Part shown: piece by piece, positions 59,616 to 63,674 of the stretch
Layout: each line of letters begins with the position of its first letter
Position numbering within the stretch: the stretch's first letter is position 1
NCBI GenBank assembly: GCA_016220085.1
Contig: JACRIN010000020.1
Location: 20,174 to 84,173 of the forward strand
Direction of reading: 5' to 3'
Origin: Planctomycetota bacterium
GTDB taxonomy: Bacteria; Planctomycetota; UBA1135; GCA-002686595
DNA: 64,000 bases
The notes under the pieces: generated by a model
Seen by the model: only the letters and a program-made list of their open reading frames with translations
Told to the model about the DNA's origin: nothing
Databases searched by the model: none
Translations under genes and position numbers: made by a program

Positions 59616-60851
59616 TCAGCGCTTGGTTGCGATCGCGTACGGGATCGCGACCTCGCCCTGGTCGTCGGTCTCGACGGTCAAGGTGCCCGCGAGCTCGCCC
59701 GGCGCGGGGCTCGACAGCCGAGCGCGCAAGAGCCAACGCGGGCTCTTGCCGCTGTCGTCGGGCGTCGCGGGCTCGGCGTCGGCGACGATCAGGCCGTCGG
59801 CCGCCGCATCGGGCTTGATCGCGAGCACGCGGAACCGCTGACCCGACAGGTGACCGAAGATCTCGACTTCGCAGGTCGTGCCCTCGTCGAGGCCGACGAA
59901 CACGAGCCGCGCGGGACGGATCTCGAAATCCGGCACGCCGGTGCCGACGATCGGCACGCGCACGACCGGGCCCGTGCCTTCGCCGTGCGGCCCGGTGGTC
60001 GAGAGCTCGACGAAGCGGTCGATCGGTCCGCGCGCGACGGGCGCGGCGAGCTCGACATCGAGCGTCCATTGATCGGGCACTACGCCCTCGTCCCAACGCA
60101 CGCTCGCGAGCACGCCGGGGCTCGCGCGCTCGACGCCGATCAGCTTGCGCCCGTCGACGTCGAGGCCGACGATCTTCGTCGAGCCGCGCGCGCCCTCGGA
60201 CTCCGCGACGTCGCCGAAGCGCAGCGTGCCCGGCACCGCGAGGAACGAGAGCTGCACGATCAAGTGCACCTCGATCGCGAGGAACGGATTGGTCGCGGAG
60301 TCGGTGGTCAGCACGAGCCGCACGCGCTTGGTCGCGTTCTGCACCGGCACCAGGCGGGTGTCGGAGACGACGACGAGTTCCGCGACCGCATCGGGCGGCA
60401 CGACGAGCATCGGCTCGTCGTCCCTCTCGCCCTCGACGCGCGTGCCGTCGGCGGCGACGTACGCGATCGTCGCGGACGTGCACGAGCAACCGGCCTGGAG
60501 CTCGCGCACCGCGAGCGGTCGGCCCTCGGAGTTCTTCAGGCGCACGGTGCATTGCGCGGTCTCGCCGAACGGCACGACGCCGAGGTCGTAGTCCCAGGGC
60601 AACGCCGGATTCGGCGCGTCGACGATCTGGAAGCCGCCTGTCGGGGCGGGCTCGGCCGCGACGCCGGCTGAAGTGCCGGGCGCGGCTGCCGACGCACCGG
60701 GCGCCGCTGCCGAATCACTGGGCGCAACGCCCGGGGGCTGCGTGCCCGAATCGTTGCAAGCGACGCCCGACACGGCCGCACCGAGCGCGAGGAGACCCGC
60801 GGCCAAGCGACGAACGACGAACGACGCGTGGAATCCTGCCAGAGCTCCCAT
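59616..60851 (-). CDS. DUF1573-domain lipoprotein
   Basis: This 411-residue protein starts at ATG 60851 with a signal and lipobox V-A-C (Cys32), followed by an Ala/Pro/Ser/Gly-rich linker. A DUF1573-type Ig-like domain begins near residue 80 (Y-D-L-G-V-V-P-F-G-E-T-A...G-C-S-C-T), a module common in Planctomycetes and Bacteroidetes envelope proteins. Two further beta-rich segments (about 180-290 and 295-410) look like repeats of the same fold. The upstream frame to 61088 is not coding. It is divergent from glyA. Probably a periplasmic-facing structural or binding lipoprotein. Confidence 0.85.
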   Translation of the reverse strand: MGALAGFHASFVVRRLAAGLLALGAAVSGVACNDSGTQPPGVAPSDSAAAPGASAAAPGTSAGVAAEPAPTGGFQIVDAPNPALPWDYDLGVVPFGETAQCTVRLKNSEGRPLAVRELQAGCSCTSATIAYVAADGTRVEGERDDEPMLVVPPDAVAELVVVSDTRLVPVQNATKRVRLVLTTDSATNPFLAIEVHLIVQLSFLAVPGTLRFGDVAESEGARGSTKIVGLDVDGRKLIGVERASPGVLASVRWDEGVVPDQWTLDVELAAPVARGPIDRFVELSTTGPHGEGTGPVVRVPIVGTGVPDFEIRPARLVFVGLDEGTTCEVEIFGHLSGQRFRVLAIKPDAAADGLIVADAEPATPDDSGKSPRWLLRARLSSPAPGELAGTLTVETDDQGEVAIPYAIATKR

Positions 60852-60946
60852 GCGGCGGTCCTTTGTACCCGCTGCGTCGCTTTCGGCAACCGTCTCCGCA
60901 GCTCTCGGCGTTGATCCCTGGCGGAAGAGCCCCAGAATGGTCGCCC

Positions 60947-62215
60947 ATGACCACCGCCCATTCCGCCACGTTCTCACCGGCCGCGCCGAAGCACCTTTCC
61001 GACGACGCCGTGTGGAGCGCGGTCGATCACGAGCGAGGACGGCAGGAAGCGCAGCTCGAGTTGATCGCGTCCGAGAACCACACCTCACGCGAGGTGATCG
61101 CGGCGATGGGGACGGTGCTGACCAACAAGTACGCCGAGGGCTATCCCGCGAAGCGCTACTACGGCGGCTGCGAGTACGTCGACGTCGTCGAGAACCTCGC
61201 GATCGAGCGCGCGAAGCAGCTCTTCGGCGCGCCCCAAGCGAACGTGCAGGCGCACAGCGGCACGCAGGCGAACGTCGCCGCGCTGATGGCGATGGTCCAG
61301 GCGCGCGACAAGGTGCTCGCGATGTCGCTCGACCACGGCGGCCACCTCTCGCACGGCCATCCGAAGAACTTCTCCGGCATCTTCTACGAGTTCCACTCGT
61401 ACGGCGTCGAGCCGGGCACCGAGCGCATCGACATGAACCGCGTGCGCGAGCAAGCGCTCGCCGTCAAGCCGAAGCTGATCCTCGCGGGCGCGTCCGCGTA
61501 CCCGCGCACGCTCGACTTCGCGGCGTTCCGCGCGATCGCGGACGAGGTCGGCGCGAAGCTCCTAGTCGACATGGCCCACATCGCCGGCCTGGTCGCCGGC
61601 GGCATGCACCCGACCCCGGTGCCGCACGCGCACGTGACGACGATGACGACGCACAAGACGCTGCGCGGTCCGCGCGGCGGCTTGATCGTCTGCCACGACG
61701 ACTTCATCAAGCCGATCAACAGCGCGGTGTTCCCCGGCGGCCAAGGCGGTCCGTTCATGCACGTGATCGCGGCGAAGGCGATCGCGTTGCGCGAGGCGTC
61801 CGGACAGAGCTTCGCGGACTACGCGAAGCGTGTCGTCGAGAACGCGCGCGTGCTCGCCGAGACGCTCGCCTCGCGCGGCTTGCGGATCGTCAGCGGCGGC
61901 ACCGACAACCACCTGATGCTGGTCGACGTGCGGCCGATGAAGCTCACCGGCAAGGACGCGGAAGAGCTGCTGCACAAGGTCGACCTGACCTGCAACAAGA
62001 ACCTGATCCCGTACGACACCAACCCGCCGTCGAAGGCGAGCGGCGTGCGTCTCGGCACCGCCGCGATCACCACGCGCGGCCTCGGCGTCGCGCACATGCG
62101 GCAGCTCGGCAACTGGATCGCCGACGTGCTCGCAAACCCGACCGACGACTCGGTGGCGAAGCGCGTCCGCGGCGAGGTCGCTTCGGTCGCGAAACAGCAT
62201 CCGATCTACGCTTGA
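60947..62215 (+). CDS. glyA: serine hydroxymethyltransferase
   Basis: This 422-residue PLP enzyme interconverts serine and glycine with tetrahydrofolate. Landmarks are E-L-I-A-S-E-N-H-T-S, T-N-K-Y-A-E-G-Y-P-A-K-R-Y-Y-G-G, D-M-A-H-I-A-G-L-V-A, and the PLP Lys in T-T-M-T-T-H-K-T-L-R-G-P-R-G-G. All are in order and the length is normal. ATG 60947 has TTGATC...CAGAAT upstream (60911-60938), which would give an almost leaderless transcript; this is tentative. A GC hairpin follows the stop codon. Confidence 0.97.
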   Translation: MTTAHSATFSPAAPKHLSDDAVWSAVDHERGRQEAQLELIASENHTSREVIAAMGTVLTNKYAEGYPAKRYYGGCEYVDVVENLAIERAKQLFGAPQANVQAHSGTQANVAALMAMVQARDKVLAMSLDHGGHLSHGHPKNFSGIFYEFHSYGVEPGTERIDMNRVREQALAVKPKLILAGASAYPRTLDFAAFRAIADEVGAKLLVDMAHIAGLVAGGMHPTPVPHAHVTTMTTHKTLRGPRGGLIVCHDDFIKPINSAVFPGGQGGPFMHVIAAKAIALREASGQSFADYAKRVVENARVLAETLASRGLRIVSGGTDNHLMLVDVRPMKLTGKDAEELLHKVDLTCNKNLIPYDTNPPSKASGVRLGTAAITTRGLGVAHMRQLGNWIADVLANPTDDSVAKRVRGEVASVAKQHPIYA

Positions 62216-62239: not shown

Positions 62240-62267
62240 AGCGGCCTCGACCCGAAAGGACAATCCC

Positions 62268-63674
62268 ATGCGATGGCGCGTCGTACCGATCGTGCTCTTC
62301 ACCGCGCTCGCGGGCGCCTGCGGCTCCGGGGACGACCAGGGGGCCGGGAAAGCCGGGAGCGCGGACCCATCCACGGCGCCGTCCGCGCCCGCGGTGACGG
62401 CCAACGAGCCGAACGAGCCCGCGGCGCCGACTGCGGAGACCGTGCCGGCGATCCGAGCGATCCCGGTCGCGGCCGCAACGCAGCCCGCGACGCCCGACAC
62501 GCCCGACACAGGCGTCTCGACGCTCGATCCGCGCGCCGAGCGCTTGGCCGCGATCGAGAGCGAGTACGACGCCGCGAGGAACGCGTTCTTCGCCGCGTAC
62601 CGCGCCGCGTTCGAGGGCAAGGACAACCCAACGCTGCAGGAGCTGCAGGCGTTCCAAGCGGCGAATCCGGAGCCCGAGCTCGCGCCGTACGTCGCCCATG
62701 CGAAGGCGCTGCTCGACGAGGACGAGACCGACGTCACCGCGCTGCGCACGATCGAGTGGTTGCTCGAGAACTCTCCATCGCGGGACTCGACCGCGCCGTG
62801 GATCGCGGTGCTCGTGAAGCACCACGCCGGGCGCGCGGAGCTCGCCGAGCTCTGCGACCTCTTGGTGCGCCACGGCGAGGTGGCGTTCGTCGAACGCCTG
62901 CTCGCGGAGTCGCCGCATATCGACGTGCGCGGTCGCGCGTGCATGGCGCTCGCCGACGGTCTGAAGGAGGACATCGAGCTCGCGCGCAACCTCGCGGACG
63001 CGAACGAGGGCGATCTCGAAGGCTGGAGGGGCTTCCTTGGCGCCGAGCGCGTCGCCGAGTTGCGAAAGCTCGAGCCCGGCGAACTCGAACGCCGGATCGA
63101 GAAGCTCTACGAGCGCGTCGTCGCCGAGTTCGCCGACGTCGAGGTCGGCGCGGGCACCAAGCGCGAGACGACGCTCGGCGCGCGCGCGGGCGCGGAGCTC
63201 TTCGAGATTCGCAACCTCGCCGTCGGAAAGCCCGCGCCGGAGATCGAGGGTCAGGATCTCGACGGCGTCGCGTTCAAGCTCTCGGACTACCGCGGCAAGG
63301 TGGTGCTGCTCGACTTCTGGGGCCATTGGTGAGGCCCTTGCCGGGCGATGTACCCGCACGAGCGGTCGCTCGTGGAGAAGTATGCGAAGGAACCGTTCGC
63401 GATCGTCGGCGTCAACAGCGACGACGACCTCGCCGAGCTCGTGAAAGTCCGTGAGCAGGAGCGCATCACGTGGCGCTCGTTCTGGAACGGACCGCAGGGC
63501 ACGCAAGGCCCGATCTCGAAAGCGTGGAACGTGCGCGGTTGGCCGACGCTCTACGTGATCGATACCGCGGGCGTGATCCGCTACAAGTCGGTCGGCGCGG
63601 ACGAAGAGGCGCTCGACGCGATGCTCGCGAGCTTGCTCGCACGACCCGGGCAACCGGCCGCGCCGGTGAAGTAG
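62268..63674 (+). CDS. predicted TlpA/thioredoxin-like lipoprotein selenoprotein (UGPC)
   Basis: This is one frame of 468 codons interrupted only by TGA at 63330-63332 (codon 355). Before it the sequence reads L-L-D-F-W-G-H-W; after it G-P-C-R-A-M-Y-P-H-E. The TGA thus replaces the first Cys of W-C-G-P-C. The downstream part is conserved in thioredoxin-fold style (A-I-V-G-V-N-S-D-D-D, W-R-S-F-W-N-G-P, W-N-V-R-G-W-P-T-L-Y-V-I-D), so it is not decayed. A signal with lipobox L-A-G-A-C (Cys18) and an Ala/Pro/Thr linker precede a helical domain (about residues 75-310) and the redoxin domain (about 325-468; G-K-P-A-P-E-I-E-G-Q-D). Start ATG 62268 has RBS GAAAGGA. A SECIS-like hairpin lies at 63357-63374. 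I infer a periplasmic, lipid-anchored thiol-redox selenoprotein. A sequencing error or pseudogene is the alternative. Confidence 0.85.
63330..63332 (+). other. in-frame UGA predicted to encode selenocysteine
   Basis: The TGA lies at codon 355 of the TlpA-like gene, at the position of the resolving-partner nucleophile in the C-G-P-C motif. One base change from TGC/TGT would restore Cys. The second motif Cys (C358) is intact, giving U-G-P-C. Confidence 0.8.
63357..63374 (+). promoter_or_regulatory. candidate bacterial SECIS element
   Basis: The sequence CACGAGCGGTCGCTCGTG folds into a perfect 7-bp stem with a GGUC tetraloop (63364-63367). It starts 24 nt after the UGA, and the first loop G is 32 nt after it, within the range described for bacterial SECIS elements. 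A GGUC-type apical loop is also the core of the E. coli fdhF SECIS, where the loop Gs and U contact SelB. It lies inside the coding frame, as bacterial SECIS elements do. The caveat is that GC-rich DNA often forms hairpins with GGTC-like loops. Confidence 0.7.

Follow-up and report, generated by a model that had tools for sequence, protein, structure and literature searches.

In a 64,000-nucleotide stretch of a planctomycete draft genome (hereafter the window, by which the whole stretch is meant), we found a gene whose in-frame UGA (codon 355) is very probably (about 0.92) read as selenocysteine (Sec) with the help of a hairpin that begins 24 nt further on. The product would be a ResA/TlpA-like redoxin, predicted to be anchored in the envelope and to have Sec-Gly-Pro-Cys as its active site. 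A first-pass annotation, made from the letters of the window, had proposed a selenoprotein at this place, and this proposal is now supported by the Sec machinery of the genome, by a UGA column conserved among relatives and by a hairpin that is conserved and partly covarying. Taken together with a search of the phylum for the UGA and hairpin pattern, these observations make Sec insertion very likely.

The reading frame runs from ATG to TAG and its sole interruption is one TGA, located, as first annotated, at the nucleophile of a W-C-G-P-C motif; the active site of the predicted protein is thus W-U-G-P-C (Table 1). The redoxin domain had been said to continue through the 113 codons downstream of the TGA, and this proved correct: the best Pfam match, PF00578 (AhpC-TSA, E = 1.9e-19), spans the TGA, Redoxin (PF08534) is matched as well, and 3gl3 and 4hqz are relatives in the PDB by sequence. 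The modelled redoxin fold is nearest to ResA-like proteins (4nmu, 3gl3 and ResA entries), with a model-based target TM of about 0.88. For the full-length product the AlphaFold model had a mean pLDDT of 86.3, with values of at least 90 at 359 of the 468 residues, and the helical domain modelled alone reached 96.2; a PDB structure search with this helical domain gave nothing significant (best E 0.17). Counting from the active site, Met361 stands at the place of the active-site glutamate of ResA, which is Glu80. The lipobox is a known sequence pattern, here applied to LAGAC at the end of the signal peptide, and among the database matches listed (see below) lipobox-like patterns were present in 34 of the 49 homologues whose entries stop at the UGA, versus 7 of 51 Cys homologues.

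Table 1. Positions of the window gene, its parts and its upstream neighbour (window coordinates).
Feature	Position	Strand	Remarks and basis
Whole gene	62268..63674	+	468 codons plus stop; TGA at codon 355, predicted to be read as Sec
Shine-Dalgarno-like AAAGGA	62255..62260	+	7 nt upstream of ATG; by eye
Signal peptide with lipobox-like LAGAC at its end	62268..62321	+	Pattern match; Cys18 would be the lipidated residue
Ala/Pro-rich linker, predicted disordered, residues 19-87	62322..62528	+	Low pLDDT
All-helical domain, about residues 88-290	62529..63137	+	AlphaFold model
ResA/TlpA-like redoxin domain, about residues 319-459	63222..63644	+	Pfam, PDB sequence and fold matches, AlphaFold model
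In-frame TGA, predicted Sec355	63330..63332	+	Frame reading, column conservation, hairpin pattern search
Cys358 codon	63339..63341	+	Presumed resolving residue
Predicted SECIS hairpin CACGAGC-GGUC-GCUCGUG	63357..63374	+	Loop 63364-63367; folding and conservation
glyA (serine hydroxymethyltransferase)	60863..62215	+	Upstream neighbour; ends in TGA used as stop

Divergent from glyA, a minus-strand frame at 59616-61088 matched DUF1573 weakly (22.3 bits, the Pfam cut-off being 26.1) and contained no in-frame UGA; a DUF1573 selenoprotein is on the list in the accessible part of a 2026 review of prokaryotic selenoproteomes. When the neighbours of a dozen relatives were inspected by eye in raw translations, no common partner was found except glyA at one locus (L023), and no relative was found in the viral contigs scanned.

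A protein database search gave 1438 matches, of which the best 120 were listed. Among these 120, 53 end exactly before the UGA (one being the window's own entry), 8 begin just past it, 4 of the latter both beginning and ending at a UGA, 51 are continuous with Cys at this position and 13 show none of these patterns. These data bear on the possibility that the UGA mainly terminates translation, with a truncated lipoprotein of linker and helical domain as the main product and readthrough being minor or regulated by selenium. Recoding in E. coli amounts to 30-40% in vivo and depends on selenium, according to the accessible part of PMC4513850, and some truncated product is therefore expected here too. 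As the main outcome, termination is nevertheless improbable, given that the redoxin family pattern is kept after the UGA and that continuous Cys versions exist. It would also leave an incomplete redoxin fold according to the AlphaFold model; the first-pass annotation had remarked that the gene would, if not recoded, yield a protein without its active site.

The position was followed in 138 distinct aligned segments, in which the column held UGA in 112 and Cys in 26 and no other residue, although the scan would also have accepted S, T, D, E, G, A, W and R; the alignment with Cys homologues that had been suggested as a check thus placed the UGA in a Sec/Cys column. All 61 related genomes searched had a match, with one TGA in most of the strong matches listed. 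The segments were taken mainly from TGA-bearing rows of these matches plus 20 rows without TGA, so the ratio of UGA to Cys is not a frequency. At least 50 of the 61 genomes and seven of the eight families contributed 107 of the 112 UGA segments, the other five coming from named records. When a Cys member (P0095) was used as query against 199 genomes of the phylum, TGA-bearing genes were still the best matches. On a rapidly built tree of 186 redoxin domains, left unrooted, at least 22 changes between U and C were required, which we do not take as evidence for either gain or loss. One UGA member with an identical hairpin (L024, 5001-5909) lies on a contig labelled Limisphaerales bacterium (Verrucomicrobiota), reflecting either misbinning or gene transfer.

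A search for sel genes had been named as a check, and selA, selB, selD and the gene for tRNA-Sec were all present in the window genome: SelA scored 481 bits, SelB and SelD were both over the cut-off, and tRNA-Sec scored 72.9 bits and was found by ARAGORN too. Among the 61 related genomes SelA was over the cut-off in 59; it was not found in G023 (67% complete) and G032 (80% complete), the latter of which has a UGA member. The selD of the window genome (L010, minus strand) has an in-frame UGA of its own (CAG-U-AGK), shortly followed by a GCAA hairpin seen by eye. That many genes of the family tolerate an in-frame UGA would also be expected if UGA were reassigned throughout the genome or generally read through in the absence of a Sec-specific signal. 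This is very unlikely in view of the Sec machinery, of the adjoining glyA, which ends in TGA, and of the confinement of the UGA to a single redox column with its own hairpin. Moreover, TGA is the next stop in 48 of the 112 UGA members; in one of these 48 the TGA, three codons on, forms the second U of a UxxU motif, and some of the remainder may encode Sec in an additional domain. A recent nonsense change or an assembly error at a Cys codon, conceivable in a draft of 5.55 Mb that is 86% complete and in 111 contigs, can be practically dismissed because the UGA recurs in 112 segments from so many related genomes and in 19 further families (see below), with the frame open for a median of 109 codons up to the next stop and the domain kept.

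The hairpin with the GGUC loop was found 24 nt after the TGA as annotated, with a stem of 7 bp and a folding energy of -10.5 kcal/mol. The published bSECIS rules (PMC13188914) ask for a loop of 3-9 nt, a stem of 4-16 bp, a G within the first two loop bases, a distance of 16-37 nt from the UGA and at most -7.5 kcal/mol. The folding check on these rules came out positive for the window gene, with a 4-nt GGUC loop, 7 bp and 31 nt in addition to the energy given above. Of 200 shuffled sequences, 1 had a hairpin as stable, and 6 of 100 codon-shuffled versions reached its energy. The 70 nt after the TGA showed no excess of folding compared with shuffles (z = -0.74, 43 of 200 as good), and a 42-nt stretch had z = -1.18. 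No SECIS was returned by Rfam for the whole window at gathering scores or for 63200-63500 at relaxed scores. From the window sequence alone, the hairpin is thus not clearly above chance; judged by its conservation, it clearly is.

Two registers of the hairpin were recognised among the 112 UGA members. Register A has GGTC at positions +32 to +35 counted from the UGA (68 members), and a complete 6-bp stem was present in 66 of these 68. In register B, seen in 34 of the remaining 44, the hairpin has 5 bp and is shifted downstream by 7 nt, the loop occupying +39 to +43. The outer codons of this second hairpin co-occur (GCG with CGC in 14 cases, ACG with CGT in 9 and GAG with CTC in 7), and the bases of its two variable pairs are matched in 73 of 88 cells, compared with a mean of 54.6 and a maximum of 65 in 2000 permutations; the register was defined post hoc by reading the 44 leftover sequences, before it was put to the permutation test and compared with the Cys controls. 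The loop of register B lies 38 nt from the UGA, just beyond the 16-37 nt of the bSECIS rules, and for this reason the scan with these rules missed it. Altogether a hairpin could be assigned to 36 of the 44 members outside register A; in the other 8, out of all 112, no recognisable hairpin was found, and a paralogue in the window genome (L084) is among these 8. In L130, L141, L142 and L126 a hairpin at about +16 replaces, or occurs besides, registers A and B.

The Cys segments served as controls. The bSECIS rules were passed by 80 of the 112 UGA segments versus 3 of the 26 Cys segments, and a full hairpin in either register was found in none of 44 Cys segments (the 26 plus 18 read from 20 extra regions, one of which held a UGA member). 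When all UGA segments are considered, register A or B was present in 150 of 164, a proportion biased upwards given that part of the set was found through the hairpin.

The codons that encode the hairpin are nearly invariant. For the residues H-E-R-S-L-V, 103 UGA members, some of them found through the hairpin pattern, used CAC in 101, GAG in 102, CGG in 102, TCG in 103, CTC in 102 and GTG in 90, and the 63 members found independently of that pattern gave almost the same picture (CAC 62, GAG 62, CGG 62, TCG 63, CTC 62). By contrast, one Ser and one Arg position further upstream in the same genes are each encoded by several codons, TCG making up 21 of 99 at the Ser and CGG 7 of 83 at the Arg. 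Codons between the UGA and the hairpin were also biased (Arg+4 CGG in 53 of 58, Gly+1 GGC in 41 of 45), which indicates that the constraint is not limited to the hairpin. As a control for codon choice the Cys segments are good but imperfect, since none of the 44 retains H-E-R-S-L-V. Among the paired variants, some have changed on both sides of the stem and thereby alter the protein: CATGAGC/GCTCATG replaces V by M, CACGAAC/GTTCGTG replaces L by F, and AACGAGC/GCTCGTT replaces H by N.

A search independent of the protein was made in 392 Planctomycetota genomes with a pattern consisting of TGA, 24 free bases and the hairpin, allowing at most two mismatches. Matches were obtained in 75 of the 392 genomes, and the reversed pattern used as a control gave 6 matches. 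The pattern itself does not demand UxxC or UxxU, and one or the other was in frame at 116 of the 120 places listed, in 72 genomes. These genomes made up 27 of the 41 in the order of the window organism and 45 of the 351 outside it, the latter across 19 families. UGA and hairpin relatives thus occur in many Planctomycetota families and the family spans the phylum, which goes beyond what a reading of the single window could show, and the hairpin pattern is directly usable for the repair of annotations.

Variants of the active site and of the layout were also present. Five members from four families carry UxxU (ULTU, URTU or ULSU) together with the register A hairpin (L132/L232 in G043, L229 in G364, L230 in G350, L231 in G387 and L284 in G123); in this subfamily the two UGA codons are three apart and are followed by A-x-W-P and the hairpin, and the motif is possibly a diselenol active site. 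Two loci (L233 and L234) each have two UGA redoxin domains within one frame, and in L233 both hairpins contain a compensated A-U pair. The database fragments P0059, P0071, P0078 and P0086, each lying between two successive UGA codons, fit such a tandem layout. The window genome itself has 21 PF00578 matches and two further UGA redoxins: C98:33402, with a register B hairpin seen by eye, and C83:40745 (the L084 mentioned above), which reads H-W-U-G-P-C.

In the mechanism that we propose, SelB and Sec-tRNA would recognise the hairpin and insert Sec at the UGA, and the product would be exported and anchored by a lipid at Cys18. Sec355 would then attack a substrate disulfide and Cys358 would resolve the intermediate. 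Given that Sec is first in the CxxC motif, that the fold is ResA/TlpA-like and that export and a lipid anchor are likely, the protein probably acts in the envelope, outside the cytoplasm, as a thiol/selenol-disulfide reductase. TlpA and ResA keep the cysteines of secreted proteins or of metal centres reduced, and by analogy with them our best guess is that the window protein may have a task of this kind. Four heme-copper oxidase matches over the cut-off indicate that the window organism is likely aerobic, and the protein might, for instance, reduce cysteines of oxidases or cytochromes.

The nearest relatives in fold and among the NCBIfam models are the Cys proteins ResA, TlpA and DsbE, from which the window protein differs by having Sec for Cys and an additional helical domain. 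By the curated cut-offs it is not an orthologue of any of the three, since its scores of 66, 47.9 and 55.7 bits fall far short of the required 170, 230 and 123. Three NCBIfam models of thioredoxin-fold proteins carry Sec or (seleno) in their names, and these too scored the window protein (P0001) below their cut-offs: NF041054 (WAxxUGC; 34.2 versus 300 bits), NF041057 (Rcas_1661 (seleno)lipoprotein; 11.8 versus 190) and NF053656 (TUGYCR; 12.1 versus 100). None of the NCBIfam models scanned claims the window protein. Sec in a lipid-anchored position had been called unusual, and this has to be softened, since NF041057, a thioredoxin-like (seleno)lipoprotein model, provides a precedent for a lipid-anchored Sec redoxin. 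An algal TlpA selenoprotein is also known, in which Sec insertion relies on a different kind of SECIS. This protein is likewise TlpA-type and thioredoxin-like, but it is eukaryotic and has a hemerythrin-type metal-binding domain, as described in the accessible part of PMC7539508.

The architecture had further been put forward as one not yet described among selenoproteins, and this too has to be softened. UxxC redoxin selenoproteins are already catalogued under broad labels in the accessible parts of PMC2398784, PMC9312934, PMC13188914 and PMC1088965, and those listed in PMC9312934 and PMC13188914 include a Prx-like thiol:disulfide oxidoreductase (PF00578), a thiol-disulfide isomerase-like protein (cd02966/PF13905) and a redoxin family (PF08534). 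Like the window protein, such proteins have a thioredoxin-like fold with U first in UxxC, and PF00578 is also the best Pfam match of the window protein, but the accessible descriptions do not include the lipobox and helical layout, planctomycetes or a two-register SECIS. The distinction was drawn from these descriptions, and the catalogued proteins may overlap with the planctomycete family. A Sec peroxiredoxin was considered and rejected, as the PxxxTxxU motif of these enzymes (accessible part of PMC13188914) is absent and the site reads W-U-G-P-C. From the same phylum, planctomycetes with full Sec machinery are treated in PMC4807772, the accessible part of which names the selenoproteins FdhA and FmdB; a redoxin may be in its fuller list. 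In the open-access literature searched, no description was found of this planctomycete Sec-redoxin family, of its layout of lipobox, helical domain and Sec-redoxin, or of the two registers, UxxU and the tandem forms.

Given that 53 of the 120 matches listed end at the UGA and that no scanned NCBIfam model claims the window protein, the use of Sec in the phylum is probably under-recorded. Planctomycetes have no occurrences in the accessible part of the 2026 selenoproteome review cited above, and selenoproteins are described there as rarely retained by aerobic bacteria, with which the heme-copper oxidase matches of the window genome contrast. We consider it reasonably probable that Planctomycetota possess an undescribed, expanded selenol-redox system of the envelope, with Sec-TlpA proteins of the UxxC type, a conserved UxxU subfamily with a diselenol site and tandem forms that carry two Sec, and that at least one of the organisms using it encodes heme-copper oxidases. 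In such a system part of the protein sequence next to the active site would be dictated by an 18-nt SECIS, nearly frozen throughout the phylum, and by a second register placed 7 nt downstream, so that the RNA structure would have shaped the enzyme. In the two registers codons vary together, at times replacing the amino acid, and this offers a natural experiment on the extent to which a recoding signal in RNA can constrain a protein.
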